This document shows positions 1 to 54,322 of a DNA stretch of 64,000 nucleotides, in pieces (within the stretch, counting starts at the first letter, position 1; the number at the start of each line of letters is the position of its first letter). The stretch comes from Physcia stellaris. Its lineage: Eukaryota; Ascomycota; Lecanoromycetes; Caliciales; Physciaceae. Under the pieces are notes generated by a model that made no database searches, was not told the DNA's origin, and saw only the letters and a list, made by a program, of their open reading frames with translations. The stretch covers positions 620,001 through 684,000 of the forward strand of contig JABSSW010000010.1 of the NCBI GenBank assembly GCA_018902385.1, in the 5' to 3' direction. The position numbers were made by a program, and so were the translations under genes.

Positions 1-296
1 GCTCGTTTTTTTCTTTCTGTTAATCGTTGATCGATCATGATTTGAAAAAGCATAAAAGTTGTTGTTTAATGAATTCGATGTCTCGTTTCTTTCGTCTTGT
101 GATTTGAAAAAATTTTAAAAATTGTTGTATGTTTTGTTTTATTGTTTAACGAATATGATAAAAACTTATCTTTGTTGTGACTTCGTTTTGATTTAACACG
201 ACTGATAATCGTCTTTATTTTCTATTATTTTTGAGACTTCAATCGTTCGATAAATACGAAAAAAAAAGAGTGAGTACAGTTTTGACAATACAATCT

Positions 297-510
297 CGAA
301 AAAGCGTATTTGACGTACTGTACGAACAATTGTTAAAAGAAAAAAAGCAATCTAATAGACAGTACAACTTCGAAAAAATGTATTGATCAAGATGTTCACG
401 TTCAAATAGTATCGTTTCGAAAAAGCGTATTATAAAGTCATTACATATTCGTTAAAATCACATAATATCGCTTCGAAAAAACGTATTATGCAGTCATTAC
501 ATTTCGATCT
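297..510 (+). repeat. degenerate repeat of a TTCGAAAAAGCGTATT-like motif
   Basis: The core motif recurs near 297, 371, 416 and 472 with small changes. The last two copies also share a following stretch reading roughly TATNNAGTCATTACAT. Spacing is 45-75 bp, so this is a loose array and not a clean tandem repeat. Confidence 0.55.
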
Positions 511-1125
511 TGCAAAGCAAAAATTCGATCAAAAAGAACAAATAGTGTTGAAAATATTTGATTTTTTCGCATATTAATCGATTTGATTTTCTGATAAATC
601 TTAATCACGTCAAAAAAATTCGATTTTGCACTTTTCGCATCGATGCATGCTCGACGCATTCGATGCATCATTTTTTTTATCGATTTCTCGATCATTTTCA
701 GCTTTTCGCATCGCATCGACATATTTTATAAACTTTTTACAATCAAATTACATAAAGATCGATTCATTGATGTCGCAAGAAGTATTTGAAAATTCTGAAA
801 TTCACAATGATGCTATCAAATCATGATGTGATTTGCATTCTCGTCAATATCGCACTACTCAAGCAATTGATATTTGTTTCATGATGTATTTTCTACTCAA
901 TTTTAGATATCGAATTTCACATCGATGCTTCATTTCATGAAAATGCATATTTAGAACGTCGCAATTCTTCAGATGTTCGATCGCACGTCTTACAAATCGA
1001 CTCTACGTCATATCTGAAATCACGAATTTCGATTCGTTCGTTTTTGCAATTTTCGCATCGATGTATGATTTAACTCTACAGAATTTACGTCATTCGAAAA
1101 GCTTGCTCGAAAGTTTCAAACAACA

Positions 1126-1190
1126 CATCGTTGAAAAAACTTCAGAATTCATCGTTGAAAAAACTGAATTTACATCGCTGAAAAAGTTTG
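1126..1190 (+). repeat. short tandem repeat, about 24 bp unit
   Basis: Three neighbouring copies of CATCGTTGAAAAAACT-like sequence start near 1126, 1149 and 1173. A second motif, CGAAAGTTTCAAAC, occurs at about 1109 and 1193 and flanks the array. In one frame this gives a short repeated peptide, but no gene is supported. Confidence 0.5.
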
Positions 1191-1484
1191 CACGAAAGTT
1201 TCAAACTGAACTCGTCAAAATATTGAGCAAAAAACACAAGCGATTGCTGTGAAAAAGTGTTGAAAATACAATTTTCGCAAATGTGCTCGACAGATGTTGC
1301 AATCAAAATTCATTGATATAAATCGATCAATCGAGATTAGCGTTTTGACATTCGCACACATCTTGTGTTTTCATTTGCATGTATGTTATCAAAACAACGA
1401 AATTCAAAACAATAAAATGATAGTCATTCATGATTTTTTCAATATTTTTTGTAATTTTATTGTTTTTTTTCGTTTCGTCATCAT

Positions 1485-1722
1485 TGTTACGAACATGTCT
1501 GACAGATAATTTATGTTAATTTGACAAATAAATAATTGATATGATATGTGATCGAACAACGAATTATGTTTTAATTTTACGTTGAAATTAACGTGATTTG
1601 AAATTTGACGTCGCACATTGTTTGCAATTTCAACATTTTGTATTTATTTGTTTTTGCAAATTTATTGTTTTCGTTTAATTAATCAATAATACGTTTATTC
1701 AAACACGATTCATGATATTACA
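1485..1722 (+). repeat. left LTR of element A
   Basis: Begins TGTTACGAACATG and runs to about CATGATATTACA. It matches 7969-8192 in the same orientation and 22,110-22,340 in reverse, so it defines one LTR family with three copies here. The exact 3' edge is uncertain by a few bases. Confidence 0.88.
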
Positions 1723-2295
1723 ATAAATTTTCAATTTTATCGTTCGTCGTGATACGCGAACGTTCAAAAATAAAATTTCAAAATCGATTAAATTTTTTTG
1801 ACGAAACAAACGACGAAAAGTTTTGTTGATCAAACAAACGATCAAAAATTTTTTTGACGAAACATTTGACGAAAATCGTGAAATAACAAATCGAATTTTC
1901 ACGCAAACGACAATTTTCGACGATAAAAAACGAAAATTGACACGATTAATTTTTTTTTTTTTCATTTTCAATTTTTCATTTTTAGTTATGATTCGAAATC
2001 ATCACAAAACAATTTTTTCGAATTTTTATTTCGATGAAACAACGTTTCAAAACGTTACGTTTCAATGTGAATCGTATGTTGCAAAATTAACGACAATTTT
2101 TTTGACGAAAATTTTGTCGAACAATTCAAACGTCGTCGATTTATATTAACGATCGAATTCATAAAAATGAAAAATGACGAAATCATTCATTTTTTGAATA
2201 TCGTCATTATCGATCAATTAAAATGATAAATCAATCATAAAATCGTCGATTTTTTAAAAAAATTTGATCGATTACGTATCGATCGTGACAATTAT

Positions 2296-6049: not shown

Positions 6050-7500
6050 TGTCAACAAAATTGACGATAATTGCACGATTTATCGTGAAATTATCGAACA
6101 AAATTTCATTTCAATAAATGAAATTGATTTACGAAATTGCATTGAAAAAAACGACGTTTTATATCGAAAAAATCGATTTTGAATGTTCGTCGATGTTTTT
6201 TTATTCGTTGATTTTTTCAAAAAAATTCATGAATTTTTTGTTTCGAAACATTTAAATTTTAATCGCATGAAAAATTTTATACGTCGCGATTATTATTGAT
6301 TTAATATGCGCAAAACGATTCGTCGATACGTACGTAATTGTTATGAATGTCAACGCACGAAAATTTTCAAAAATCGCAAAAACGATTTATTTATTTTTTT
6401 GATTATATTTTTGCAACGTTGAATCGACATATTAATAAATTTCATCATCGAATTGTTCGACGTTTACGATCATAATGTTATATACACGATAATTGACAAA
6501 TTTAACAAAAAACGTCATTACGTGTTTTGTATCGTCGACGACGAAAATATCAATGTTAAAATCACGATCAAAATATTCATCAATTACGTATTTCGTACAT
6601 ATGAATTATTTTTTTCGATAACGTTTGATCGAAATTTTCAATTTATATCGTTCGTTTAATAAACATTTTGTCGAATTTTCGACATCAAATGTAAATTTTT
6701 CATCGTTTTTCATTCAAAAATCGATGAACAAATCGAAAAAATCAATCAAAATATCGAAAAACAATTGCGACAATATTGCAATTACATGCAAAACGATTGA
6801 AACGTTTGATTGTTCATAATCGAATTTGCAAACAACAACGCAATATTTGCAACAACAAAATTATTTTCATTTTTTATCAATAAAAATTTTCATTTTCGTA
6901 TAAATTTTTTATCAAATTTTATTTCGTATATTACAACGAAAAAACGATTTTTGATCGTCAAAACAAAAAATATTATCGACACGATACAAAATATTTTCAA
7001 TTACGTACGAAATCATGCAAAAATGATTTAAAAACGTATAACAATTCAAATCAACAAACATCGAAAAATCGTAAAATACGTCGAAAAAAATTTCGTTTTT
7101 TTCGATCGACGAAACATCAAAACGATCAAATCGTTTAACAAATTCAATAACAAAAAATTAAATTTTTACAAAATATTACAACGTATGAACAATTCATATC
7201 AATTCAAATTGTTTGAAATTATACATATTTACGATGTGTTTCATTGTTGATTTTTGCGCAAAAATTTTCGTAATTCATTCGAAAATCAAATCAATGAATT
7301 TTTTGATTTTGTTATAATCAACGAAAATTTCGAATGAAAAATGAACGATATTTTGAAATTTCGATATTATTACAATCGTTTTCAATATCGTGTCAATTGA
7401 TCGAATTGATCGCATAATCGAACATGATATTATGTCGACAACGAAAAATTTAATAATGTTCGCGACGTAATGAACGATTTTTATCGCATTCATTTCACGA
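6050..7500 (+). pseudogene. integrase with chromodomain-like C-terminus, element A
   Basis: An HHCC-type zinc-binding segment lies near 6130-6390 (ending in a YVRNCYECQR-like motif). The catalytic core follows near 6450-6700, including an IDKFNKKRHYVF block and a TFDRNFQFIS block. The C-terminal part (6900-7250) contains RRNIKT- and FHC-like landmarks common to fungal chromoviruses, and a YRVN-like chromodomain trace lies near 7330-7500. Known role: insertion of the cDNA, with the chromodomain steering it to heterochromatin. Fossil. Confidence 0.82.
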
Positions 7501-7954
7501 TTGCAAATTCAAAATCGTTCAAAACGTTAATTTCAATATTTTAAAACGTCGTTAACGAATCAAATTTTTCAACAAATCGTCGTCGTTTTCGAAAAAAAAT
7601 CGTCATGTTGACATTAATCGAAATTATATTCAATTAAAATTTGAAAATTTCGAATTCAATACATTTATTTCGATTTTATTTTCGCAACGTTTTCGCAATT
7701 TTTAATTTTCGTTATCGTTTTCGTGTTATTTACAATCAAAATTTACATCGCATGAAAAACTGAATCGTGTCAAAAATATTTTCAAAAATTGTTGTCAAAT
7801 TTTATCGAATTTTGAAACAACAACGAAACATTTGAAAATGAAAAATGATAATCGTGAAATTTTTGAATTTTGCAAATATTCAAATCAATCAACAAAATTT
7901 TGAAAAAAATTTTTCAATTTCGAAATAACAACGAATCGTCGAAACGACGTTCGC

Positions 7955-7968
7955 GAAAAAAAAATAAT
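7955..7968 (+). other. polypurine tract before right LTR of element A
   Basis: A GAAAAAAAAATAA-like purine run sits immediately 5' of the right LTR, as expected for the plus-strand primer. The same arrangement is seen in reverse for element B near 22,341-22,356. Confidence 0.7.
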
Positions 7969-8192
7969 GTTACGAACATGTTTGACAAATAAATTTGACA
8001 AATAAATAATTAATATGATATGTAATTGAACAACGAATTATGTTTTAATTTTACGTTAAAATTAACGTGATTTGAAATTTGACGTCGCACATTGTTTGCA
8101 ATTTCAACATTTTGTATTTATTTGTTTTTGCAAATTTATTGTTTTCGTCTAATTAATCAATAATACGTTTATTCAAGCACGACTCATGATAA
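7969..8192 (+). repeat. right LTR of element A
   Basis: Begins TGTTACGAACATG like the left LTR and stays alignable through TTTATTCAAGCACGACTCATG. It is slightly shorter than the left copy. The 3' edge is approximate. Confidence 0.88.
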
Positions 8193-10963: not shown

Positions 10964-10968
10964 CGTAT

Positions 10969-22109: not shown

Positions 22110-22340
22110 TGTTAATATTATCATGAATCGTGCTTGAATAAACGTATTATTGATTAATTAAACGAAAACAATAAATTTGCAAAAATAAATAAATACAAAA
22201 TGTTGAAATTGCAAACAATATACGACGTCAAATTTCAAATCACGTTAATTTTCACGTAAAATTAAAACATAATTCGTTGTTCGATCATATCATATCAATT
22301 ATTTATTCATCAAATTTATTTGTCAAACATGTTCGTAACA
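22110..22340 (-). repeat. 3' LTR of element B
   Basis: Reverse complement of the A-family LTR: in the minus direction it begins TGTTACGAACATG at 22,340 and ends near ATGATAATATTAACA at 22,110. Confidence 0.88.
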
Positions 22341-23052
22341 TTATTTTTTTTTTTCGCGAACGTCGTTTCGACGATTCGTCGTTAATTCGAAACGAAAACG
22401 TTGTCGATTGTTTTGAATGAATTCAAAATTCGAAATTTTCACGATCATCATTTTTTGATTTTTTCAATATGTTGTATCAATTTACAATTCAATAAAATCG
22501 AACAACAATTTTTGAAAATGTTTTTGACACGATTCAATTTTTTATGCGACGTAAATTTTGATTGTAAACAACGTCGAAACGATAATAATGAAATTTGAAA
22601 CTAAAAAAAAAATTTTTGAAACGAACGAATGAAATCAAAATAAATTCAAATTCAATTGCGATTTTCAAATTTTAATCGAACGTAATTTCGATGAATGTCA
22701 AAACGACACTATTTTTTCTAAAACGACGACGATTCGCAAATGAATTTTGATCATCGATTTAAAAAATGAAAAAAATGATTTTGAATGATTTCGAATTTGC
22801 AACGATAAAATGAATTCGATAATAATTATTCATCACGTTACGAACATTATCGAATTTATCGTTATCGACGTAATATCAAATTCGATCATGCGATCAATTT
22901 GATCAATTGACGCGATATTGAAAACGATCGTAATGATATCGAAATTTTAAAATATTGTTCATTTTTCATTCGAAATTTTCGTTGATTACAACGAAATCGA
23001 ATGATTCGTTGATTTGATTTTCGAAAAAATTACAAAAAATTTTGCGCAAAAA

Positions 23053-24792: not shown

Positions 24793-24960
24793 GATTTTCT
24801 TGAATAAATTGAAAATTTTTTCGATTTTTGTAATTCATTCGAAATTCACGAATTTTTTGATCATGCGAATGAAAATTTTGATTTTTTTCGAAAAATCGCG
24901 AATGAAACGTCAATAAAAATTGACGAAATTCACGAAAATTTGAATTTTCTTGAAATTGAT

Positions 24961-35804: not shown

Positions 35805-36249
35805 TTAATTCGAAATACGTTCATTTAATTGTTAATGTTCATAAATTTGTTTTCAAAAATTGATTTAAGCAAACGTTGAAATTTGATGTTTCGATTATGA
35901 CAATTGACGCGATTATGACGATTAATTATGAAAATTTGCACGATGCGATCGCGATTAATTTCGTCGATGCAAATGTCGATTTTGCGTTCAATTTTGTACG
36001 CAATTTTAACGATTCAATTGTTGTAAATTTTAGTATTAATGCGAAAGAAATTTTGTCTGTTGAAATTATCGTTTACGATGACGTTAACGTTCGAATTAAA
36101 TTTGCAAACGTTGCGTTAAATTATTCAAAATTATGAAACGACAATGAATTTATCGTGCGAATTTCGAAAAATGAATGAATGTCAATTGAATTCAAATTCG
36201 ACGCGAAAATAAAAACAACAAAAATTTATTTTTTCGATTTCGCAAATCG

Positions 36250-36952
36250 AAAGTTCGTTGATGAAATTTTTGATAAATTGCACGTTCAAAATCGCATGAA
36301 ATACATCAATCAATTCATTTCGCATAATTATTTTGTTTTCGCAATATGAAAAACAATATTTGAATCAAACGATTCAAAACGCAAAAATCGAATCGTCGTG
36401 AATATACGCGAATTAAACAAAATTATTTTAATCGATTTTTATTTTATGTTTTTTTAATCAGACATTATTTCAGTTGTCGTCGAATGCAAATTCATATTCG
36501 TTTTTGACGTTACGAATTTTTTTCATCAATAACTGATAAAATTTGCAAACAAACATAAATTTATTGTCGTTTCACATAAAAAACAAAAACAATTTAACGT
36601 CGTCGTGATGAAATTCAAAAATTCATTTTCATACGTACAACGACGAATCGATTTTATTTTTCGAAATTTTCGCGAATTTGTTCGTGTTTACGTAAACGAC
36701 ATTGTCGTTTTTTTCAATATTTTTGAAAAATATATGATTCATTTTCATTCGATGTTCGAACGATTAAATATTTATAACATTAATTTGTCGTCGAAAAAAT
36801 CATTTTTCGATTATTTTACGATCGCATTTTTTGATCAAAAAATTGACGTTTTTGATTTCACTATCGCAATCGATAAATTGAAAACAATAATCAAATTGAA
36901 TTTTTTTTATATTTTGAAAACTTTGAAAATCTATTTAAATTTAACAAAATGA
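36250..36952 (+). pseudogene. reverse transcriptase region of element F
   Basis: The block NSFSYVQRRIDFIFR, then VRVYVNDIVVFFNIFEKYMIHFHSMFERL, carries the catalytic YVND(I) site followed by the HxxHL helix of gypsy reverse transcriptases. LSSKKSFFDY and the KLKTI segment follow as expected. Fossil. Confidence 0.85.
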
Positions 36953-37078
36953 TTACGAGATTTTGTTGCGTTTTATGTTCAAAAAACGAACGCGTTACAA
37001 GATCGTAAAATTTTATTTTTACGTTAATCATCGTTCAACAAAAAAATCATTCGCAAAATTTATTCGCAAAAAATTGTA

Positions 37079-37780
37079 ATGAACAATTTTTCAAATGAAA
37101 AATTAAAATCATATCGATTATTGCAAAAAATTTTTAACAAAATTTCATTTTTGATACATTTCAATTTCGATCGAAAATTGTATATCGACATCGACGCGTT
37201 TAAACGACGCGAATTCGACGCGATAATTTATCATTTCAAAACAAACAATAATTCAAACAAATTCAAACGTAACGACATCGAATTTATTTTATTTTTAAGT
37301 CGAATATTGAACGAAATCGAAATCAAATATTGATTCATCGAATTCGAAATGTGTGATTTAATATGAATTGTCAAAAAAATTCGACATATGATAAAAGCAA
37401 TCAAAAATATCATTGTTGTGTTCACGAATTATGTCGTTAATATTTTTATCGTTAAACAAATCACGATGAATTCGAGCAACATCGATAAATTCAATTTTCG
37501 TTTTGTTCGTGTTTCAATTTATCTGTCACAATTTAAATTGAAAATGAAATATAAATCAGAAAAAAATCATATTGTTTCGAATGCGTTATCAAAATTAGCG
37601 TTTGACAATGAACAAATCGACGTAAATTCAAAAAATAAATTTGATTTAAACACATATCATGACGAAATAATCGATTTTTCGAATAATTTCGATTGTTACG
37701 TTTTTCAAAAAATTTTTATTGTCATGTCGAAAAAAAAAAAATCAAAAACGATTATCAAAACGAAAAGACGTGACGAAACA
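37079..37780 (+). pseudogene. RNase H region of element F
   Basis: LIHFNFDRKLYIDIDAFKR is the start of RNase H (family: LYxDxDAS). Further on YLSQFKLKMKYKSEKNHIVSNALSKLA is the well-known H-xVPDALSRL end block. Fossil. Confidence 0.83.
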
Positions 37781-37800
37781 TAATCACGATATTAAAATCG

Positions 37801-39330
37801 TTGACGATTCGAATGCACGAAAAAAAACAAAATTTGTCGATTCGAAATTTTCAAATTTCGTTGTCGTTCGAAAACAACGTAAAAAATCGAAACGTCAATG
37901 AGCAAAAAAATGACGATACGAAATTTATATCAAAAAAACTCAAAACAAAAATCAATTTCGCGATAAATACGAATGACATTATATATCACGTTGACATTGA
38001 TTCGCGTCGATCGTGTATATTTGTCACAATGAAACGCGAAATATTTCGTTTAATTCACGATCAAAATTATCATTCGGAAATTCATCGATGTTATGACAAA
38101 ATTTTCAATACATTATACATATTTCGATTTTCGCGAAAAATCAAAAAATACATCGAGCATTGTTTTATTTGTCAATTAATACAAATCAAACGTCATCGAT
38201 TTTACGAAAAATTAATGTTTATTACATTCGTTTCGCGTTCGTTTCATATCATTGTCATTGATTTCATTTTAATTATGTTTGACGAAATAAACATTGTTAT
38301 GTTCGCAATTTGTAAATATTTTCGTCGAATTTCATTGATTTTCGACAAAAACATTTATGAAACGAAAAAATGAATCAACGTATTATTGAACAAACTATTA
38401 ATCGTCGATTGAAAAATGTTTGAAATTATAATTTTCGATCGTGATTCAAAATTTATGTCGAATTTTTGACAAATATTTTTTATCAAATTAAACACGAAAT
38501 TGTTAATTTCAATGACATATTATTCGCAAACGAACGATTCGTCAAAACGAATCAATCAAATTGTTGAAATTGTTATCAAATATTTTGTCATCGAATTTTC
38601 GAACATCGATTACATTTTAATTTTTTTTGCAATTCAAGTTCAGTTAAACAACACGTTTAACATCGTTACAAATTTATCATTCAATGAAAATATATACGAA
38701 TTCAAAATCAAAAACGCGATATCAAATTTAATCGAATTTAACACAACAAATGTACAGAATTTGTCAATTCAATGCATGAAATATCAGCGAAAAATCGTCG
38801 ATATCACGAATTTTGCAATTGTCAAAATCAAAATATATTATGATTCACGTCATATTTTTATTCGACTAAAACAAAATGAAAAAATTTATTTACAATTCAA
38901 CAAAAATTACAAATTGTTTGACAAATTAAATTCGAAATTATTTCAACAACGTTGCGAATCATTTCGAATTTTTAAACGCATCGAACGTTTTGCGTATTGA
39001 TTGAAATTGTCATCAACATAACGAATTCATTTCGTTGTGTTTATTGCACAATTCGAATCAACATTTGTCGAAACTGATTTTTACAATCGTTCGCGTTTTT
39101 ATTATTTTGATTTTATTGAAATCGAAAACGATACGAATCAATACAAATTTTATGATATTGAAAAGCTAATCGAAAAACGAATTAAAAAATACAACAAAAT
39201 TTTCGTAATTCAATATTTAGTCAGATGAATCGATTATGAATCGAAATATAACGAATGACAATTCATTTTCGAATTACAAAATTTTCAGAATTTCATTGAA
39301 CAATACGAATTCAATCATTCGCATGATTTT
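37801..39330 (+). pseudogene. integrase and chromodomain-like tail of element F
   Basis: HDQNYHSEIHR plus YIEHCFICQLIQIKRH gives the HHCC zinc site. FHIIVIDFILIMF opens the catalytic core, and MTYYSQTNDSSKRINQIVEI is its second block (38,500 onward). The segment YDIEKLIEKRIKK followed by IQYLVR (39,150-39,230) is a chromodomain trace. Fossil. Confidence 0.85.
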
Positions 39331-41015: not shown

Positions 41016-42377
41016 TTAATCAATAATGCGACGTTTCGCATTTGTAACAATTCGACGACGTTTTTTTTTAATTTGAAAATTTTTAAAAACGATCAGCTTT
41101 GAAACGAAAAATTTCTTGAAAATTGACGAAATGAAAACGCGAATAAAAAACTTGACGTTGATTTTTTTATTAATTGATTGATCAATTCGAATGAATATTT
41201 CAAATTTAACGATTTGATAATTTTTCAAATTGTGAAATTTTTGATTCACAATTTCAATCAATTTTTTCAACGAATTGATATCGTTGAATTTTTCATTGTT
41301 GACGATAATTCGTTGAAAAACAAACGTTAATTTTTCGCGAAATTCATCAATCAAAATCTGTTGAAAATAATTGAATAATTGATTAAATAAAAATACGAAT
41401 TTCGAAAAAAATTTCGAAAAACGTTGATTGATGTTCATTTTGAAATTTTTAAATTTATTTCGAACGATACGATCGATATTTTTTTCGACAAAAATTGTAA
41501 TTAATAAAACAAACATTTCGTCGATTGTTTTGAAAAACAAAAAATCATGTTTGCGTCGAACAAAAACATGATCACGAACGATTTCATTCAATCATAATGA
41601 CACGATCAAAATTTTCATCTGATTCGTTGAATAATGATCATTGTTGATAATGAACTTGTCACGAATCAATTGTTTTCAGATTTCATATGATAATTTCGAA
41701 ATGTTCTGTGAAAATTTGAAAAAATTCGAAATTTTAACATTACGTTTTTTATTTTTTGTAACGTTTGTATTCAAAGATGAAATGAAAACAGAAATATCGA
41801 TTCTTTTCAAATTGAATTGAAAAATGACGTTTTCAATCGTGAATTGAAAATTTTCGATGAAAAAATCGTTGTTTTTAAACTTAAAATCGATTTGTTGATT
41901 TCGAATAATTTGAATCGTATTGACAAATTTATTGTAATTATCGACATATTCGTTTCATTGAACAATACAAATTACGTCGATATCTTTATCGACGCGTAAT
42001 TTCTCGAAAATTTTAAAAACGAATGTCGAATTATGACGAATTCAATTAATCAATTGTGTTTCAATACAAATATTAAAAAAATTTTCACAATCGTTTTTTT
42101 TTATCGGAAATTGATGAACGTTTTCGAAATAACAACAGAAAATGTTCGAATTCAAAAACAAAACAATGAAATCAAATAATTTTTGTTTTGATTTAAAAAC
42201 GATAATACGATCGATTTGAATAATGCGTTTGCGTTTCATGAATGCAAATATGTTGAATGACATAATTGCTTGTAAAAAAAAAATTTGATTTGTAAAAAAA
42301 AAAATCGAAATCGAAAAACGTTTGCAATAAAAAATAAAAAAAATCATTATTTGATTATTATCAATTGCGAAAAGCAA
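41016..42377 (-). pseudogene. gag region of G
   Basis: The 191-codon frame (41,591-41,016) has the helical pattern of a gypsy capsid C-terminal part, with YFQQILIDEFREKL and a segment ending in RIVTNAKRR, where a CCHC knuckle would lie. A second frame upstream (42,377-42,042) is weaker. Fossil. Confidence 0.6.
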
Positions 42378-42843
42378 CGAATGATAAATAACGTGTTGTT
42401 TAAAAATGTGATAAACAAAATGAATAATTGATGTTTAATTCGAAATGTTTCGTTATGAATGTTGATTTTTGATGAAATCGAACGTCGTTTACACAATTTG
42501 TCGTTTTCGTTCAATGATCGAAAATAATGTCAACTCGTCGTTTCGATTTGTAACGTACGATTTCGTCGTCGTTTTGCTAAAATATCGAAATGACTTTTTC
42601 GTGAAAATTCACATTCAAAATTTCTGTTTTCTAAAAAATGATTTGCGTGAAATAAAATTTCGATATTTTCATTCGAATCGTTTGAATTTTTGATTTCACG
42701 TGAACAAAATTTTCTCGTTTTCGTTGCACGTTTAGAATTTAATTGTTGACGTTTTAAATTTTCGCGTTTGATTGAAATTTTGTTTATTGAATAAATTGTC
42801 GTATTTCGAACAATTTGAAAAAATTAAAATGATTTAAAAATAA

Positions 42844-43014
42844 TGTGAAATGTTATGCATTGATTGAATTAATACATAATTACACGAAAATTTCTAAATA
42901 AAAAGCAAATACATGAAAATTTGTAAAAACATATGTAAAAAATTAAATCGCTTGAATGCGTCAAAACGATTTTCGATTTTAACATTCGATGTAATAAAAT
43001 AACAATGTTAACAC
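42844..43014 (-). repeat. 5' LTR of G, larger piece
   Basis: Reverse complement aligns to the E LTR from its middle to its end (ACATATGT, TTTCATGTA, GCATAACATTTCACA). The other 44 bp lie beyond element H at 48,917-48,960. The total, about 215 bp, equals the E LTR length. Confidence 0.82.
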
Positions 43015-43210
43015 TGTTGAAAAGTACGATGACAAAAGACTGAAATATGAACACGAATAGAATCAGAACTTCTGATTGATCGATTAAACGAAACGTGTCA
43101 AAATCGATCATTATTAAAAACATTTGCGCAATCAAATTGTACTTACTTTTGTACGTAATTTCGATAGTATTGCATGCAATGCAATGACAATCATTCACAT
43201 TCGTTCAATA
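43015..43210 (+). repeat. left LTR of element H
   Basis: 196 bp; differs from the right LTR at eight positions, every one a transition in CpT or ApG context. Confidence 0.94.
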
Positions 43211-43432
43211 GATTATGAGATTCGAATTAACATAAGCTTTTTATGATTGTCAACGTCAATCGTTCGATCACGAAATCACGAAAATCAAACAGTTGTGAGA
43301 AGAACTCATCGTTCGATCGCGTTAAAACAATAAAGAGAATTTACACGATTCGATCGACAACTTCACGAAAAAGCACACGACAGTAAAGAGAATTTACATT
43401 CGAATACATATTTACATATCACATCACGCATC

Positions 43433-44263
43433 ATGAACGATTTCGAAATCAGCAAATTCAACGCGCGTCGAATTTGCGATATTTTTATTCGTCAAAATTG
43501 CGAAAAATGATTCAAGTTAATGAAACAATGACTCATCGACGAAGAAATCTGAATGATCGTCGATTCAAATTATGTGTCGAAGTTGTTGTCGAATGATTTT
43601 CGAAAATCAAAATGAAATGTCGATTTGAATTTTGATGAGAGAAAAACTAAAAAGAAATTCGACGCAAGAGCACAATATCAATTCATCGAATGTATCAATG
43701 ACGATGATCAAGAATTGATGACGAAACTGAAAACTGTCAAAAAGATTTGAAAAATTCTTGTCAACAAATACAAACAAAAATTTGCTACAATTGAACGACA
43801 ATTGTTGCAAGAACTCATGAATTACAAAAAATTTTCAGACGTGATCATTGAGATCGTTTATATCGATATCATCAAGAAAAATCGCAAAGTTGCAAACATG
43901 CAATCAGACATGATGAGTTTGTTCAAATCAAAACGTCGTTTTCAAACACTTTTAGCATTCTTGTTTGTCGAGTACGATGTCATTCGTGATGCAATCGACG
44001 CACAAAACAATTTCGATGTCGATAAATCTATTCAAAAGTTGCAAAAGAAAAAAACACAATTCATTGCAAGCAAGATCGTTGAGTCGACATTGATAATCAA
44101 AAACAATCGTCGTCAATCTTATCGCATATCTCAACGACGATTCTTCAATTTCGACGAAAGTTCTCGTCGTTTCAAAATTAGAACGAAAAAAACGAAATGT
44201 TTTCTTTGCGATGATTCACATCGAATCGCAAAGTGTGATTTTTTGAAAAAATTAAAAAAGTGA
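43433..44263 (+). pseudogene. gag region of element H with zinc knuckle
   Basis: A copia-type gag: an N-terminal NDFEISKFNARR segment, a helical middle, and a CCHC-like knuckle CFLCDDSHRIAKC near 44,199-44,237 just before the end. The knuckle binds the element's RNA in this family. Fossil. Confidence 0.75.
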
Positions 44264-44559
44264 GCGAAAAAACAAAAAATCAAGAAACTTTTACGTAAGA
44301 ATAAAAAACACAAAACGTACAACGTCGTCGATTTTTTTTCGTTCAGCAGCAATTCAAGCTTCGACATCGACATCGATTCAAACAATGAAAAACACATGAA
44401 GAAAATCGTCGCTTTATTCAAAGAATTGATCAATAAATTCTTCAAGTTCGTTTGAGTTGCAAACATTGACGTTTCGTTTCACATGATTGACGATTTTCGA
44501 CTCTTTAATGAGTTTTTCAAGTCGATTAAAAGACGCACGATTAAAGTCGAAAAAAAAAA

Positions 44560-45102
44560 TTGTATTCAAATCAATGTGATTCAGTGACGATACGCGTCAA
44601 GAACGATGAAAGCACGTTGACGAAAATGTTTTATGTATTTGATTTCGACGTCAATCTTTTATTCGACAGACACTTTATCAAGAAGAATTTGATAGAAAAT
44701 TTCAATGACGATAATTTGTTTATGCGTAATAAGCAAGACGTTGAAATATTTCGAGCATTCGCTCAAAAAGATGTTTACATAATAAACAAAATCACATCAA
44801 AACTTAAAAAGTACGCATTGTTAGCGAGCAACACGATGTTTGCAATTGAATTTTTTAAAGTTTTGTTTGTTTCATTTGCAATGTCAGCAATCGTGAATTC
44901 GAACGAAATTTTGTTCGATGCAAATATTGATTTTCGAAGTGATATCGAGATCGATTCTCAATTATCGAATGTTGATTCAAATATTGATTCAAATGTTGAT
45001 TCAAGTATTGATTCAAATGTTGATTCAAATATTGACTCAGATGTTGATTCAAGTATTGATTCAAATGTTGATCAAAAGAAACGTGATTTATACGAATTAT
45101 GA
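44560..45102 (+). pseudogene. protease region of element H
   Basis: FYVFDFDVNLLFDRHFIKKN corresponds to the copia protease block normally read VLYVPxLxxNLLS. The frame then enters an Asp/Ser/Asn repeat (44,971-45,074). Fossil. Confidence 0.72.
44971..45074 (+). repeat. 12-bp tandem repeat coding for a (V/I)DS(N/S) run
   Basis: Eight full and one partial copy of GTTGATTCAAAT / ATTGATTCAAGT. The repeat is in frame and gives an acidic Val/Ile-Asp-Ser-Asn tract. Confidence 0.9.
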
Positions 45103-45960
45103 CATCGACGTTTTGATCATATGAAATTTGCAATGTAAAACTTCGAGATTTGCACAAGATCACAACTTTACGCAAGTCGATTTTTATCGTCGAGAATCGC
45201 AGCGATTCATGTAAGATATGTGCGATTACGAAAATGATTAATGCACATAATCGTCGTTTAATCGAACGCAAAACTCATATATTGAAATTGATGTTCATTG
45301 ATATTTGCGAACTTTTATTTGCTTCAAGACTCGATTACGAATATTTTTTAGAAATCGTGAATAATCACTTTCGACGAACGTGAATTTTATTTCTTCGCAA
45401 ACGAGTCGATGCATCAAAAGTTCTCAACAAATGAAAATTGAAAATGAAATTAAAAACTCAACGAAAATTACAGACAATACGTTGTGACAACGTCAAAGAA
45501 TTGAAATTTATACTCGATTTTTGATGCGAATCTATCGATATTGTTTCACAGTACATCGTTTCGTATAACTTTATTCAGAACGATGTAGTAGAGCATGTCA
45601 TAAAAACATTCGAGAATCAAATTCGAAGCAATGACTCAAAATGCAAAATTGTCTATAGAATTTTGATTTGAAACAAAAGAAACAAATGTATATGTTCGCA
45701 ATCGTATGAACACGAAATCAATAATCGACGACAATTTTACAAACTTTATTGAAATTTGAACAAATATTAAGTCGTCGATAAATCACATACGCGTTTGAAA
45801 ATGCAAATGTTATTCGTTCGTTGATATCAAATCATTGTTCGAAAGAAACAAAAAGAACAAATTCGTCAATACAAAAAAATCAAATGTGTTCATGAATTAT
45901 GACGAAAACATCATCATTCAATACAAGATATGAACTTTTGATCGTCGCGATGTCATTAAA
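45103..45960 (+). pseudogene. integrase region of element H
   Basis: Follows the protease with a HRRFDHMKF-like segment at about 45,105-45,130, the copia pre-integrase H-x-R-x-x-H block, and fragments of the integrase core to about 45,900. Only partly readable. Fossil. Confidence 0.6.
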
Positions 45961-46690
45961 CATCACAAGATAGTGTTTCTTGAAAACGAGAAATGAAAAA
46001 GTGAATCATTGAATTTGTTCACGATTACAATGAACGAATTATTTGAAAAACGACTTGTCGAAAAATCACGCAAAATAATTTTTGCATTTGCAGTCGTTTC
46101 GATGACATCGACGTTTGCATCAATTTTTGTTGCATCAATTTTTGCAAAATTTTCGATTCTCATTGCGTCTATGATTTCGAAGAACAAAAAAGAAATTCAG
46201 TCAACATATAAAAAAAAACGATGAATTTATCGATACATCAAATAAAAAGAATGAAGTCAACGAGTTTACGACGAAGTCGACAATTCAAACGCGTGTTAAA
46301 TTAACATTTCTCACGAAATCTTCACGCATGATACAGCAATTTTTTCACGTGACAATTTTTAAGCGTAAGCGAGACATCACGAACGAGAAAAAACGAGATG
46401 AACATCGCAACAAGATTGCACGCGTCATGATGATTTTTTTGATCGAAAATTTCGATACGTACGAGCATGATGAGTGAGCTCTGTTTGCAACAACAAAAAA
46501 AACAAATCGACAATTTGTTGAAAAACTAATTATATTTGTACTCGAAAATTATCAGAAAATCGTCAATGATTTTACTTGAAAGAAATTCTAATTCGAAACT
46601 ATTCAAATCGAATTGACGACGTTAATAGTCAATGAAATTTGAAACGTCGTCATTTCATCGAAGAACGTCAATATCGTCATCAATAAATGA

Positions 46691-47480
46691 ATGTTCAAAA
46701 TCAAAATGCATGTGAATGATACATTGAACAAATTGAAGATCAAACTCGTTGCAAGAAATTTCTCGCAAATATACGAAGTCGATTATACAGATATTTTTGT
46801 TTCAATTGTCAAATTCGATACTTTTCGCTTGTTTTTTGTCATTGTCGCGTTGAAGAATTTCGAATGTCATCAAATAAACGTCAACAATGTTTTCACGAAA
46901 TCATTTTTAAAGAAGATAATTTACATGAAATCGTCATTCGACGTGAATTTATTTTTCGAACAAGCATTTCTGATTCGTCGAAGTCTTTATGAATTGAAAC
47001 AAGCAATTAGAAATTGACATGAGCGTTGCGTAAAAGAATTGCACAAATTGAATTTCGAACAGATTTCGATTGATTTTTGCATGTTTCGTCATAAAAAACG
47101 AAAAATCATATTATTTTTTTACGTGAATGACATTTTTGTTGTCGTCAAATTCAACGAGCAAGTCAATTGATTCAAAGATGAGTTCAAAAAGATATTCAAA
47201 GTCAAGAATTTGAAAAAAATGAAGAAGATTTTTGACATTAAAATCACTCGCGATCGTAAAAGACGAACTATTCGATTGAATCAAACTCATTATTTGAACG
47301 AAATATTGAATGAACTGCATATGAACATCGATAAACACGAACGTACGAAGCTATTCATGAACGATTACGATTCATTCAAATCAATGAATCGAACGATGAA
47401 CGAATTGATTCAAAGAATTATCAACACAAGATTGAAAAGCTCATGTATGTTGTCATACACACTCGTTCAGATATCGTCTT
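46691..47480 (+). pseudogene. reverse transcriptase region of element H
   Basis: Copia reverse transcriptase blocks are plain: LVARNFSQIYEVDYTDIF, INVNNVFTKSFLKKIIYM and RRSLYELKQA. The YVND(I)F catalytic site lies near 47,120, and ITRDRKRRTIRLNQTHYL near 47,250. Fossil. Confidence 0.9.
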
Positions 47481-48159
47481 CGCATTGAAACGATTAAGTC
47501 AATATTTCAGTGATTTTGCGAAACATCACGATAGAGCAATGAAAACTCTGTTTCGTTACATTCGATCGATCATCGATTTAGACCTTGTATATGATTTGAA
47601 ACTGAACAACAGTAAAAATTTCAAAATCAAGATTTATTCGAATTTTGATTACGCAGTCGATAAATTGAACAGAAAGTCGATTTTCGAATACGTTTACATG
47701 TTCGCTGAGAAATCAATATCATGAATGAGTCGTAAGCAAAAATCGATCGTTATTTCAATCATTGAAGTCGAATATATGGCTCTATCGACATGCGCTAAAG
47801 AAAAATTATGAATAGCACAATTTTTTCGAAATTTGAGTTTCATCAAATACTTCGAAATCGAATTGAATCAAATAGCAATCATTCAAAACGATAAGCATGA
47901 AGTTTGCTCATTAATGCAACTTTTGAGAGATAATCAGATCGTTAACTTGTTGATCAAAAACGCACATATTCACGAACGATCAAAACACATTGATGTGATT
48001 TATCATAATATCAAGAATTTGCATCAGAAGAATTTGATTCAATTGAATTACGTTTCAAGTGCAAACATGATAGTCGATGACTTGACTAAATCATTGTCAA
48101 AAAATAAATTCAAGAGATTCGTGAAGCAATTGAGACTGAAAAAATCGAAAATCAATTAA
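47443..48159 (+). pseudogene. RNase H region of element H
   Basis: TRSDIVFALKRLSQY, then YSNFDYAVDKLNRKSIFEYV, is the copia RNase H signature (family: YxDADWAxxxxxRKSTSGY). The HIDVIYHNI segment near 48,000 is its late helix. Fossil. Confidence 0.9.
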
Positions 48160-48185
48160 ATTTTTTTCAATAATCAGAATTGCTT

Positions 48186-48605
48186 TTTTCATGTTAAGAT
48201 GCTGATGATTCAATCGTACACATTTGACGAATCATGATCGAAAACAGAAGCTCGTTGATCGTGTTCAAATTTGAGTTGCATAATGATTCAGAATGATTTT
48301 TTTTGAAATCGTTCGAGTTTAGTTTTTTGATCAGAAAAAATCAGTGTTTTTTTCGTCAATAGTTAAGAAAGTTCGAGTTTGATGAGAGTCACGTCATTTC
48401 TTTCATTTTAAAGCGATGATGATTCGATTGTACGAATTTGACAAGCTATGATTGAAGACAGAAATTCGTTGATCGCGTTCAGACTCGAGTTGTATGATGA
48501 TTCAAAATGATTTTCTTCGAGATCGTTCGAGCTCGATTTTCTGATCAGAAAAATTCAGTGTTTTCTTCATCAATGAACGTAGAAATTGAAGCTCAGTGAG
48601 AGTTA
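48186..48605 (+). repeat. tandem duplication of about 210 bp in the 3' part of H
   Basis: The stretch from GATGATTCAATCGTAC to AGAAAAA-TCAGTGTTTTTT near 48,196-48,347 recurs as GATGATTCGATTGTACGAAT to TCAGAAAAATTCAGTGTTTT near 48,417-48,565. It lies between the end of coding and the right LTR. Confidence 0.8.
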
Positions 48606-48715
48606 CGTCGCTGCACGAATTAACATTCAGTGAAAATCACAATCAATGCAAGAATTGAAGCTCAGTGAAAGTCGCATTCACGAGTGCAATGAGCATGATT
48701 GTCATCGAGTGAAAG

Positions 48716-48911
48716 TGTTGAAAAATACGATGACAAAAAACTGAAATATGAGCACGAATAGAATCAAAACTTTTGATTGATCGATTAAGCGAAACGTGTC
48801 AAAATCGATCACTATTAAAAACATTTGCGCAATCAAATTGTACTTACTTTTGTACGTAATTTCGATAATATTGCATGCAATGCAATGACAATCATTCACA
48901 TTCGTTCAATA
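48716..48911 (+). repeat. right LTR of element H
   Basis: 196 bp; followed by AACAC, the second target-site copy. Confidence 0.94.
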
Positions 48912-48916
48912 AACAC

Positions 48917-48960
48917 GATATTAATTTGTCAAATATTGAATTCGATGCACGTTCGTCACA
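48917..48960 (-). repeat. 5' LTR of G, outer 44 bp
   Basis: Reverse complement begins TGTGACGAACGTGCATCG, identical to the start of the E LTR. Confidence 0.82.
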
Positions 48961-49107
48961 ATTCGTACGATTGAATAAATAAAATGTGAATAAAAAACAA
49001 TTGCAAAACGTAATCTGTTTTGTAACGATTAATAAATCAATATATCACATTTCAAGTTATACATTTTTGATATCAATAATTCATTAAATTATATTATTTC
49101 TAATACG
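48961..49107 (+). repeat. possible diverged LTR remnant of the I type
   Basis: The string TTATACATTTTTGATATCA and a final GAATTTTACA match the end of the element I LTR, with an insert between them. Only this end is convincing. Confidence 0.3.
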
Positions 49108-49449
49108 AATTTTACAACGATAATGAATCAAAAAAAATTCGTTTTCGTGTTATTGTATTACGAAAATTTCGTAATTCGTAATATATTCATAAATCAAAAC
49201 AATTTCAAATTTTGAATGAAATCGTACGAAAAAACGCGTTGAAAATCGATAAATTTGTTATCGTCAATATTAACAAAACGAAAAAAACAAATTATCAATT
49301 CGTAAAAAACACGTTTATCGTCGTTCGATTTTCAATTTCGAACGACAACGTTTCGTCGATTTTTCGACAAAAATTTTAACGATTTTTACAATCGTTTCAA
49401 CGACGATTGTGACAATTTTCAAATTATCGAAAATTGTATCAAATCGAAT

Positions 49450-49520
49450 TATAAATTCGTTTATATTTGTTTCATGTATCAACAATCAAATCACGACGAA
49501 ATAACGTGTTTTATTCGTTG
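49450..49520 (+). other. Cys/His-rich motif in gag-like part of K
   Basis: The translation has ICFMYQQSNHDEITC, a C-x(n)-H-x4-C arrangement like the C-x2-C-x4-H-x4-C knuckles of DIRS-type gag proteins. Confidence 0.45.
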
Positions 49521-49699
49521 TCGATTTTGATTCGTGCGAAAAAAAAAAATTTGTCGCGAATTTCGAAATCGTTTTTTTTATAACATGAAAATATTTATTT
49601 CTGATATAAATTATCGAAAATTTTTTTTATGATATTGCATCAAATAACGAAAAAAAATTGAAAATCGAAAATTCGTTAATTTATGATAATTGAAAAACA

Positions 49700-50420
49700 A
49701 CGTTGCGTTTTCATTTCGATAAATTTTTCGTTAAAAATTTTTTGCGTATAATTCGTTTCGATACGAAAATAAAATACGAAAAATTTTTACAATATTTTAT
49801 ATCGAAAAATCACGTTTCGATCGAAAAAATTTTTAACGTTTTTATCGTCGATATACAAAAACAATTAACGTTAAATAAATTGTTGATTATGAAATTACAA
49901 TTAAAAACAAATTCGTACGTATGTTTTTCGTTGAAATTGATATCGAAAAACGATAAAAATTGAAAACGAATTCACAATTTTTCGCATTTTGCAAATTCGT
50001 TAATTAATCATTACATTCGAAAAAAATATAAAATTTTTGAATATATTGTTGTAAACGATATTATAATCGCAATAATACGACGAAATCGTTATGTCGAAAA
50101 TATTCAAAAAAAATGTTAACGTTTTCAAACACGTATCGTTGATTGTATCAATTCGTTAATTGTTTAATTTTTATTGATTGAATATTTATTATTTGAAATT
50201 GTTTTTATTTTTCGAATTACGCACAACGTTTTTTTTATTCGATTTGTTTAATTAATAATTTCAATTACATATTTATCAAATTGTTTCGATATTTTACAAT
50301 TTATCATTATTTTGATGAATTTTTTTTCGTGTTATTATTTGACGCAAACACGAAATCGTACAAAAAATTGTAAATTTATATTTGCGAAAAATTGAATTTT
50401 CGCATCAATGCAAAAAAAAA
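49700..50420 (+). pseudogene. reverse transcriptase region of K
   Basis: A helical lead-in (49,703-49,963) ends in FSLKLISKNDKN and is followed by an IHNFSHFANSLINHYI-like block and an IIRRNRYVE block. These match the DIRS-type pattern RxIHxLSxPxGxSVND. It differs clearly from the gypsy and copia types elsewhere in the window. Fossil. Confidence 0.6.
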
Positions 50421-50839
50421 CAATCGAATATCGTGATGTCGTTTTTGAATATTGAATTGAATTCGAATATTATAAAAATCAAATTATTTGCAAATAAATT
50501 CGAACGTGTCAAAAAATTGATTTATAACGTTAACAACGAATTTTTCAATTCGATTAATTATCAAAAATTCGATAAATTCGATGATTTTTTTTTGCGCGAA
50601 AATGATTGTGTTTGAAAAAAAAATTGATTTCGATTTACAAAATTTTCGATTCGAAAACACGATTAATATACATCAACGACGACATGCGAACGAATTTGAA
50701 TTAATGAATCGAATTTTTATCGCAATAAAACGAAATCAAAATGATACGAAAATTTGAAACACGTTTCGAATATTTGATATGAATCGACGTTTCAAAAAAT
50801 TAAAATATTGATAATTATCGAATTCGTTATCGACATAAT

Positions 50840-51200
50840 TTTTTTGATAAAATATTCAATTAACGTTTTATCATTCGAAATCGCAAAAAAAAAACGAAAT
50901 ATACAAATTAAAAAAATGCAAATCGTTTTGCACGTCATGCGTATTTGATTGAAAAATTTCAACGATTACGAATTTATTGTTTATTGTAACAATCAAACAA
51001 TTTGCGAAAATTTACGTTCAAACATTATGCGAAATTTTGTCATGAAAAATTTACGTAAAATCATGATATTGTTGATTGTTCATAATATCGAAATTCACGT
51101 CGTTTAAATCGAATTAAAAAAAAATCGTTTTATTGATTTGTTGTCACGAAATAAATATAATATTATTATTAACGAATTTGAACAATTAATTTATTTGACA
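50840..51200 (+). pseudogene. RNase H region of K
   Basis: FIVYCNNQTICENLRSNIMR followed by an IHVVxIELKKNRFIDLLSRN-like end. This is the DIRS RNase H form, normally read VxxxxDNxxAVxxIxxG and HIPGxxNxxADxLSR. Fossil. Confidence 0.62.
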
Positions 51201-51539
51201 TTTTAAATTTAAATTCTTTTCGTAATTTTTATGCGATTCGAAATTCGTTCGAAAATTGATATGCAAAATGTTTTTTGTTCAAAAAAACAACGAATTATAT
51301 TTAATGAAATTTGATTTTCAATACGCGTCACAATTACGATATTGCGATAAATAATTACAAATGATATTGTTTGACGAAATTGATTGTATTGAATTTTTGA
51401 TCGATCAACGAATAAATATTATATTATTGAATAATTTTCATGAACATAAATCGTTTGAAATTCAAAATTATCAAAACATATATCGATGCATTGAAATTTG
51501 CACACATTAATCGCGATTATTCAAATTTTTCGATTTTTA

Positions 51540-52190
51540 ATTCGTCGTTATTGCAATGTTACATACGCGAAATAAAAAAAATATCAAAAAAACGATCGTC
51601 GAAAACGTAAATTCATTATTCGTAATATTTTGTTGAAATTGTTAATAAAATTTGATATCAATATCAAATAAAACGTCACGATGCACGTTGTTTTTTTTAT
51701 GATTTTCGCAAATTTTTTTGTATAAAAAAAATTACGTATAAAACGAACGAACAAAACGAATTCGATTTTGTTCAATAATACGTTATTCGGTTTTTCGTTA
51801 TTTTACAAATCGATTTTTTGAAATTGATTTTTTTTTTTTTAAATGAATTTTTTTCGTCACGACGTTATTATTATTATTGTTGCAACGAACGATACGAATT
51901 GTTTTATCAATTTTTTGCGTCATTTTTTTCTCAAATATTTTGCGACAACGAATACGTTATTGTTCGAAATTGAATCGTACAAATTTTTTAATGCACAAAT
52001 GATTACGAATGTGTTGCGTAAAAAATTTTGTATCGTTGAAAAACGTAAACATTATTCAAAACATTTTTTTTGTCGAAAAATCGTTACAAAAATCAAAATT
52101 CAAAACATTATCGAAATTATGATTCAAATATTGAATCGTTAATTGTTCAATTCGTATTTGTTATACATTGACGTCAATAAAACAATCAAA
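51540..52190 (+). pseudogene. tyrosine-recombinase region of K
   Basis: Within 51,843-52,142 the frame reads IIVATNDTNCFINFLRHFF, then LFEIESYKFF, then KHYSKHFFCRKIVT and IQILNRW, with SNSYLLYI just beyond. These follow the tyrosine-recombinase blocks CPVxAL, LF, the GHSFRxGAAT box and the LGRWxSDxYxxYI box, which holds the catalytic Tyr. Known role: cutting and joining a circular DNA intermediate without target duplication. Fossil. Confidence 0.65.
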
Positions 52191-52292
52191 TTGATTGTTT
52201 TTTGATATTTTCAAATTTTTCAAATTCGTTAAATTCACGTCGTTTTGTTTGTAATGATTTTCGTCGCGTGATGTTATTTTGAAATTTAAAAA

Positions 52293-52411
52293 TTAATCGA
52301 CAATATTATTGTTCAACAAAATTTTTGTTATGAATATTTTTTTACATAAACGATATTCGTTGATCGAATCAATTATCAAAATTTTTATACAAAAATTTTC
52401 AAAAATATTAA
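52293..52411 (+). repeat. terminal direct repeat of K, first copy
   Basis: 119 bp from TTAATCGACAATATTATTG to about AAAAATATTAA; pairs with 52,634-52,751. Confidence 0.85.
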
Positions 52412-52633
52412 TTCGATTTGTTAAACAAAAATGTTGATACAAAAAAAACGCATGAAAATTCAATCGTCAAAAAAATTACGCGAATTTTTTGCTCGTTATA
52501 TTACAAACGATCGTTTATTGTTTTTTTTTTGTTTTTCATTTTTCGAAACGTTTGTTTTTTCGTTTATTCGTTTTTGAAAAATCGTTTTATGTACATATTA
52601 TTTCATAATTCGATCGCGATAAATAAAAAAATT
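52412..52633 (+). other. segment between the two terminal repeats of K
   Basis: 222 bp, AT-rich. In Ngaro-type elements the matching segment repeats the left end of the element; I found no convincing match near 49,100. Confidence 0.45.
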
Positions 52634-52751
52634 TAATCGACGATATTATTGTTCAACAAAATTTTTGTTATGAATCTTTTTTTGCATAAACGATGTTCGT
52701 TGATCGAGTCAATCATCAAAATTTTTATACAGAGATTTTCAAGAACATTAA
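52634..52751 (+). repeat. terminal direct repeat of K, second copy, at edge of the AT-rich block
   Basis: 118 bp. It differs from the first copy at about ten places, nearly all transitions with G or C kept here, so this outer copy is less mutated. Base composition changes to normal immediately after it. Confidence 0.85.
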
Positions 52752-54322
52752 CGTTATCGAATATGAGTTAATGATTTGTGCAATTGTTGATGACTCAAAT
52801 ACGCCGACTAAAACTACTATGATTAATGTTGTGTACATCATTAATGCTGTCTGGATCTTCGTGTGAGGAGATAGCGATGTCTAAACAGAATATCGAGAGA
52901 ATGTAGGGCCGTTTTTGTACACGGTAAAAGTTCAGCTCAGCTGTATATGGCTGGAATTGCTGTATGTTTGCTGCAGTCATACATGCATCTAGCTTGATTG
53001 AACGGATGGTGTACATGGCTCATCTTATGTATACGAGGTGGCTTAAACCTTGTCGATGGGATTGTGGCATCAGAATTCGATTCCAGGTGAGAACCTCCAT
53101 GCTATGCCATTGCGGTGAACCATGTGATCAGAAGTGGAACAAGCTTCAAGCTTTCCTACCACTCTGGATCTTCTTTTACCCACATCTTGACGCTCCTTAC
53201 AATTGGCTTCTAGTCTCTAGAACTGTGAGGGCGGCGGACCGCAACCGCGGAGTGGTCAGGCCATGTGATGGTTTCTGGGCGCGATAGACCTAGGCATAAG
53301 CACTAAAGTCTATGCTTTCGCGCTACTCGAGTAACCCAACTTCGTGTTCCTGCGCGGTGGTGTCATATTACGCAGTAGCGGCAGCTATTCCTTGACCAAG
53401 AATGAATTGCTCAATATATACGTCGGGAATAGAAGTCCAGGTAATTAGCCATAAGCACATATTCACAAGACGATATAATATGCAGATGATTCTACCCGTT
53501 CGATGGGCTCGGACAGATTTGGTAGACAGACGTCTAGGTGTTATCCTATGCACTGTGATGACACTTCGTTTCTAGGTGGCATTTAGCTGGGGACTAGCCG
53601 AGGTGAGTCCCGGACCAGTCCCTACAGCGATCCGCTGCTTGGAAGCCTAGCGTCAGTCTAGGCGCCGAGTCTGAAGTGCTCGTGCCAGCCTCCACCAGTA
53701 GTGCATGGGGATAGTCCTAAAACCTGATTGGGTCCGAATGTAACAAGCTTTCCGCGTTGTACCGGACCATGCACCCGGAAGACTGCATAGCGCTTATCCC
53801 CGTACCCGGCAAACTATCAAAGAGTTTTCGGTATTCACACCTACCACTTCGGTAGACACACCTGCAGGTCTATAACCCTCGGATAACGCCCGGATTCTTC
53901 ACCCAGAAGCCCGCACAGCCCCTACCCGTCATGATATGTTGCAAAGACCTCGGATTCGAACATTTTAGCGTCCAATAGATGCTGATTCGACTATTCCTAT
54001 TCTAAAAAGCAAAAAGGTATTTCACCCCCAAGAAAGCACATGCCGTGGCCAGCTCTGTCCAACCTGGCGACGATTTGGGTCACAAACTCTGAGGACTCAA
54101 TCGCTTCAGCTCAAATACGCATGAAGGTTCTCGGACATAGCATTCCGTGATACAATTGTTTTTTAACCTCGTACGTTATTTTAACCGTGCTATGGATCAT
54201 CCCAGAAATCAACATAAACTTTCACCAGATCCAGAGACCTCTTGGAAACATCCCTTAGATTTTCAGCTTTATAATACATGGGAGAGGAAGGATTATCTTA
54301 ATCACATGAGGCCTGATCTAAG
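52752..54322. other. normal-composition stretch without a supported gene
   Basis: Open frames up to 107 codons occur (for example 52,964-53,287 on the plus strand), but I find no domain, no convincing start context and no intron pattern linking them. A small perfect hairpin, GCCTAG-7-CTAGGC, lies at 53,645-53,663. The sequence may be regulatory or decayed. Confidence 0.5.

Follow-up and report, generated by a model that had tools for sequence, protein, structure and literature searches.

Repeat-tied C-to-T change before pyrimidines in Physcia stellaris, with CpC lost first and CpA largely spared

Background

The closest described relative of the process discussed here is repeat-induced point mutation (RIP). 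According to PMC5496416, RIP in Neurospora crassa changes cytosines in the order CpA > CpT > CpG > CpC, and in Trichoderma reesei CpC likewise comes last. A survey of ten genomes reports CpA, CpT and CpG signatures, with CpA in every species that bears RID or Masc1; its main text does not bring in CpC (PMC4352252). This work will focus on a stretch of 64,000 nucleotides from Physcia stellaris (assembly GCA_018902385.1, contig JABSSW010000010.1, positions 620,001 to 684,000), which we call the window. Positions 1-52758 of the window are a block of repeats in which cytosines before a pyrimidine have been turned into thymine on both strands, as judged from dinucleotide counts and shuffles. The block continues past the left edge of the window.

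We believe the block is the product of RIP with a reversed neighbour rule, and we put the probability of this reading at about 0.75. Repeated DNA would be recognised, and a cytosine with a pyrimidine on its 3' side would be changed to thymine on either strand. CpC would go first and CpT roughly two to three times more slowly, and CpA and CpG would be mostly spared until the other targets are exhausted. A Masc1/RID-type methyltransferase probably makes the change, its contact with the 3' base may set the rule, and the action would fall in the sexual cycle.

The composition of the block

The near-total loss of CC and GG in the block is real and extreme. At a GC fraction of 0.256, CC occurs 3 times and GG 6 times (observed/expected 0.00 and 0.01), where 200 mononucleotide shuffles give about 916 (minimum 848) and about 809 (minimum 742). 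A first-pass annotation, made from the letters of the window, had called both dinucleotides almost absent over 52 kb and had named nine scattered survivors. The block has those nine and no others, and each was placed to within 3 bases. It had also described CT and AG as nearly gone in the older elements, and that description holds. CT is left 315 times and AG 475 times (observed/expected 0.12 and 0.19), and their sum of 790 compares with about 5017 in the same shuffles (minimum 4870). The survivors are uneven, with 464 of the 790 clustered at 1-2000 and 42001-50000 and 0-2 in several other 2-kb bins. CA (3471, observed/expected 1.31), TG (2905, 1.22) and CG (3152, 3.66) remain common, as had been noted as well, and TA is scarce (0.44).

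The block ends sharply. From 52759 to 64000 the window is an unmutated flank with a GC fraction of 0.490, and each of the 16 dinucleotides occurs at 0.76 to 1.13 times its expectation. The mutation edge falls at about 52758-52800, and the transition spans about 100 bases.

The target rule read from repeat copies

The target rule was read from aligned copies of two retrotransposon families that have members in the block. For the copia-type family we aligned the 30 best-scoring of at least 42 matching pieces in the genome. For the gypsy-type family we aligned the 8 matches that ranked highest among the 40 listed, where 40 of 147 candidates had been scored. Column counts in the copia series and the gypsy family need at least one copy that keeps the C, so they understate the loss of CpC and CpT. 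Counts that take a single copy, L031, as the reference are free of this, as are the ribosomal counts given below.

The 30 copia copies form a graded series in which the GC fraction falls from 0.373 to 0.214. Along the series, starting at the least changed copy, CC+GG drops from 87 to 0, CT+AG from 293 to 3 and CA+TG from 454 to 331, and TA rises from 157 to 305. The order of loss is CC/GG first and CT/AG next, with CA and CG little changed. With the copy of highest GC, L031, as the reference, the 29 other copies have T at 2353 of 2462 of its CC cells (95.6%), 6693 of 8219 CT cells (81.4%), 1313 of 12774 CA cells (10.3%) and 859 of 12852 CG cells (6.7%). The CC of L031 becomes TC 1243 times and TT 1102 times, and CT just 67 times, so the 5' C of the pair is the target. 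In the gypsy-type family T stands in 646 of 798 CpT cells, 230 of 2131 CpA cells and 118 of 2288 CpG cells; no CpC column remained. The main mutated sites in these 30 and 8 copies are therefore CpT in both families and CpC in the copia family, not CpA, which is the excess that the first-pass annotation expected from copy alignments.

The rates can be read from a single copy. Against L031, copy L028 has lost 0.867 of its CC, 0.007 of its CA and 0.018 of its CG. Expressed as -ln(1-f), the losses are 2.02 for CC, 0.69 for CT, 0.007 for CA and 0.018 for CG. The proposed rule of C followed by a pyrimidine is borne out, with the refinement that CpC goes first, CpT follows about two to three times more slowly, and CpA is altered in the most decayed copies.

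The base on the other side of the target matters little. Grouped by the preceding base, the T fraction in the copia copies is 0.94-0.97 for CC, 0.79-0.85 for CT, 0.08-0.14 for CA and 0.05-0.12 for CG; for CC in particular it is.95 in ACC,.97 in CCC,.94 in GCC and.97 in TCC. The second base 3' of the target has a small effect for CC and CT and a larger one for CA.

The preceding base bears directly on two other explanations. AID/APOBEC-type deaminases read the base 5' of their target, and here the 5' base has little effect. It is the 3' base that matters, and we therefore favour a reader of the methyltransferase type over a deaminase with a 5' rule. The second explanation is pyrimidine-pair damage of the ultraviolet type, or an artefact of sequencing or assembly. 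CC and CT are indeed pyrimidine pairs. TCA and TCG are pyrimidine pairs too, and they are hardly changed more than ACA and ACG (0.11 and 0.07 versus 0.10 and 0.06). The signature is also missing from the flank and from 16 of 20 stretches sampled elsewhere in the genome, as described below. We rejected damage of this kind, and give the explanation as a whole practically no credence.

A mutated ribosomal copy as an outside yardstick

Repeat copies can be compared with each other, and a ribosomal gene can be compared with something outside the genome. A 3154-base stretch of contig C41 (L065, C41:44399-47552) is a heavily mutated copy of the ribosomal DNA (rDNA), aligned by Rfam to the large subunit (LSU), 5.8S and small subunit (SSU) ribosomal RNA (rRNA). 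The counts below use all the listed alignment blocks and cover the LSU match in part. At conserved positions of the Rfam consensus this copy now has T at 29 of 34 CC, 20 of 37 CT, 1 of 30 CA and 0 of 36 CG (Fisher p 1e-18). The lone CA change falls in a poorly aligned SSU block; with that block removed the counts are 28/31, 20/36, 0/28 and 0/36 in the same order. A chosen subset of blocks gives 27/30, 17/33, 0/27 and 0/34.

This test gives the C-to-T direction independently of any repeat copy, and it confirms the direction that had been proposed for both strands. C-to-T change, or G-to-A on the other strand, is thus found in two repeat families and in an rDNA copy. The mutated copy is the sole 5.8S match (RF00002) reported in the assembly, among the 39 of 2644 candidates that were scored, and the assembly may lack a working rDNA array.

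Mutation follows the repeats

The genome searched measures 44.0 Mb, and all copy numbers given here are lower bounds, since at most the best 40 candidates were scored. Where the block stops on the right, the edge of mutation is the end of a repeat (50501-52763). This repeat has at least 10 other long matches; among the matches listed, 9 of 10 stop at window positions 52675-52763 and the tenth at 52394. On the other side of the edge, 54601-63900 (9.3 kb) has one match in the genome among the candidates scored, namely itself, and a single match is no proof of single copy.

Inside the block the tested DNA is multi-copy. The stretch at 6112-8107 (+ strand; place C10:626112-628107) is a repeat that is the same as sample L044, and it has at least 40 long places in the genome, L044 itself included, at 85-100% identity. 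Window 22118-24957 holds an inverted match to it at 83%. Part of a gypsy-type long terminal repeat (LTR) retrotransposon lies at 36001-38500 (+ strand) and has at least 40 genome matches, itself included. It carries an integrase zinc-binding domain at 37801-38373, and RVT_1 at 36605-36952 appears below its cut-off only. At 44001-47500 (+ strand) there is part of a copia-type LTR retrotransposon with RVT_2 at 46691-47017, and this piece is itself one of the family's matching pieces. Mutation has gone less far in it than in most of the block. Tandem repeats occur as well in the copia-type region where mutation is lighter, namely two 214-bp units (window 48203-48609) and, within a reading frame, a 12/24-bp array (44968-45076).

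Away from the window, we took 20 stretches of 2 kb at chosen round positions on contigs C1-C13. Four of the 20 carry the signature, a share that is rough given this sampling, and the other 16 are normal (CC/GG 0.87-1.18). Two of the four mutated samples were searched for copies and both are multi-copy. A general effect of composition was rejected, as the flank and these 16 samples are normal. On the places tested, which are the edge, the flank and the samples, duplicated DNA is hit and apparently single-copy DNA is spared. The first-pass annotation would have been weakened by the same bias in single-copy genes, and the 9.3-kb flank and the 16 samples have ordinary dinucleotides.

Some smaller features of the window can be described here. 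A 135-bp repeat outside the block (53827-53961) has normal composition and is 82% identical to C4:1256394-1256528; it may be too short for the process to detect. In the right flank, the reading frame at 60580-61344 has a weak match to the fungal Zn2Cys6 domain (PF00172, 0.0062, below the cut-off). A Pfam search of ten further reading frames in the block gave no match above the cut-off, and nine more frames, two in the block and seven in the flank, gave two weak matches, both below it.

The enzymes and the rival explanations

A profile search of the genome with PF00145 found three genes, all in loci of normal composition. According to PMC6709928 the Masc1/RID family is marked by EQT or EET at the place in motif VI where other enzymes have ENV, and a Rid of Botrytis cinerea is given with EET. 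Two of the three genes bear this mark. The first lies on contig C5 at about 498.8-501.7 kb (L003/L004). It has an 816-codon open frame (the catalytic exon) and a further exon, and it reads PCQ and EQT. The second lies on C6 at about 790.9-792.5 kb (L001) and reads PCQ and EET. The PF00145 E-values are 2.2e-33 for L001 and 3.3e-29 for L003. Over a 174-residue part of the catalytic region the products are 40% identical. Two in-frame TGA codons stand inside the PF00145 match of L001, both in apparently intron-like stretches (the first GTATGT...CTGAC...TAG), as read from the sequence. Enzymes of the family have a short target recognition domain of about 80 residues; with provisional intron borders, the part that separates motif VIII from motif IX looks short in both genes. 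The third gene, on C3 at about 340.0-343.3 kb, is DIM-2-like: its 1118-codon open frame keeps ENV and has DUF7893, and its BAH match is below the cut-off. The search for RID and DIM-2 homologues that had been suggested thus found both kinds. Judging from PMC4352252, their presence together suggests a filamentous ascomycete.

The cytidine-deaminase fold is present as well, with 8 PF00383 matches in the genome. These matches are what can be said for an AID/APOBEC-type or other dedicated cytidine deaminase that edits repeats. Against it stand the small effect of the 5' base and the presence of the change on both strands and in an rDNA copy. Because of the strands and the rDNA copy, editing of retrotransposon complementary DNA (cDNA) alone is not the explanation; we rejected cDNA-only editing on the rDNA copy. 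We consider a deaminase very improbable. The earlier proposal had named a repeat-directed mutator that was either a diverged RID-type or other methyltransferase or a deaminase. The repeat-directed part stands and RID-type genes are present, and of its candidates the deaminase with a 5' rule is disfavoured. Our choice of enzyme is what we infer from these genes and from the 3' rule.

A harder rival uses the same enzymes. Methylation of CpC and CpT in repeats, of the kind seen in methylation induced premeiotically (MIP) or in heterochromatin, could have decayed by slow deamination over many generations with no pre-meiotic mutator. The enzymes present suit both readings, and a graded series of copies would be expected from slow decay too. 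However, the large loss of CC in L028 at a point where CA and CG are hardly touched shows a very strong bias. MIP itself is methylation without mutation, and here the letters have changed. The CT and AG that survive stand in different proportions from copy to copy, with 62:126, 77:46 and 46:85 as examples (14 copies including L005, L021 and L029; chi-square 42.9, 13 degrees of freedom, related copies being non-independent). These differences look as if single strands were hit in whole-copy rounds, a better fit to strands mutated singly than to passive decay. We regard slow methylation decay as unlikely.

Several points weigh against RIP with a reversed rule and should be stated together. The first is that CpA, which the literature takes as the typical target of RIP, is not preferred here: it is changed at 1 of 30 sites where the rRNA is conserved, and at 10% versus 96% for CpC in the copia copies. 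The second is that CpA is altered once decay is far advanced. In L033, among the most decayed copies, the changed fraction is 0.975 for CT, 0.354 for CA and 0.104 for CG. CpA also changes more often when T follows (CAT 0.16) than when A follows (CAA 0.06), the ends of the range seen for the second 3' base, which could mean a second, slower process. When all rRNA positions are counted, variable ones included, the figures are 124/163 for CC, 77/117 for CT, 15/96 for CA and 29/124 for CG, with true species differences mixed in. The reference copy is itself mutated, since C is kept by other copies in 5.7% of the cells where L031 reads TA, 3.1% for TT, 2.9% for TG and 0.7% for TC, so L031 is no ancestor. 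The strand labels of leftover CT and AG are not generally clustered along single copies in a shuffle test of the 14 copies: L031 alone has few runs (no more than 27 of 1000 shuffles reach so low a number), the number of runs in L018 exceeds that of 99% of shuffles, and the other 12 are ordinary. Finally, the identity of the enzyme and the pre-meiotic timing are both matters of inference.

The change at CpA leads to a variant of the favoured reading with two layers, in which a CpY mutator is joined by a weaker process at CpA, either decay or RID activity of the canonical kind, that shows chiefly in the oldest copies. CA drops most where CT is nearly gone, as in L033, and the presence of two Masc1/RID-type genes would suit a division of this kind. 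A single enzyme with a graded preference yields the same pattern, and we find the second layer possible but doubtful. As for RIP with a reversed rule, we lean toward the view that a RID-type enzyme, perhaps the EET paralogue, is a CpY mutator that works best on CpC and spares CpA and CpG, and that lineages with such an enzyme have been overlooked as the standard RIP indices are blind to them.

Consequences for RIP indices and reading frames

Two common RIP indices have thresholds of 0.89 (TpA/ApT, this value or more) and 1.03 (the second index) according to PMC2621366. Over the whole block TpA/ApT is 0.44 and (CpA+TpG)/(ApC+GpT) is 1.375. In windows of 500 bp, 0 of 105 in the block pass on TpA/ApT versus 3 of 22 in the normal flank, and 6 of 105 pass on the second index versus 2 of 22. 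The common indices miss a heavily mutated block, and surveys based on them could score this fungus as one without RIP.

The rule also alters what the defence does to genes. It largely spares CAA, CAG and CGA, and is therefore poor at making stop codons. Both strands of the block together hold 6143 stop codons, and composition predicts 9158. TAG occurs 121 times versus 1869 expected and TAA 2740 versus 5422, and TGA is in excess (3282 versus 1867). Because TAG and TAA are rare, long open stretches are common: the block's 52.8 kb (GC 25.6%) has 53 of at least 100 codons, and 20 mononucleotide shuffles have a mean of 1.2. This excess is likely a by-product of the mutation rule, so the length of a reading frame is weak evidence for a gene in DNA of this kind.

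Comparison with known systems

Parts of this picture are already known. CpT as a main target has been described, as has the combination of two RID-type genes with DIM-2 (PMC10998396). A CpC-first order with CpA spared was not found in searches of the open-licence literature of PubMed Central, and the survey of RIP preferences by Clutterbuck in 2011 may hold a CpC case. Two reports argue against full novelty. In a table for Rhizoctonia solani AG8, CpC has the highest density among the four CpN classes of single nucleotide polymorphism, though the authors name a CpG bias (PMC4014442), and in Monilinia CpC-to-TpT double changes are reported beside the classical CpA change (PMC8959702).

Microbotryum, a basidiomycete, and Tuber resemble P. 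stellaris in having transposon C-to-T change with a main target other than CpA, as PMC4352252 describes them. Their main target is CpG, however, which here is among the best-kept contexts. In Ascobolus immersus a Masc1/RID-type enzyme acts on repeats (PMC6709928); its MIP is methylation only, whereas here the letters are changed. Anisogramma anomala is described as having two rid genes and one dim-2, with copia-rich AT blocks (PMC10998396). CpA and CpT dominate there and TpA/ApT is 1.3-1.7 in five families, whereas the block here has 0.44. In B. cinerea, Sclerotinia sclerotiorum and Magnaporthe oryzae CpT is a main target in the account of PMC4352252. CpA is also targeted in these three, and here CpC goes first and CpA is largely spared.

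Another close system is the RIP of N. crassa with RID and DIM-2. Both have C-to-T change on both strands, both are tied to repeats, and RID-type and DIM-2-like genes are present in both. They differ in the neighbour: here the order is CpC > CpT >> CpA, CpG, and there CpA is first and CpC last (PMC5496416). We believe so clean a reversal of CpC and CpA offers a natural contrast for locating the residues of the RID family that choose the 3' neighbour.

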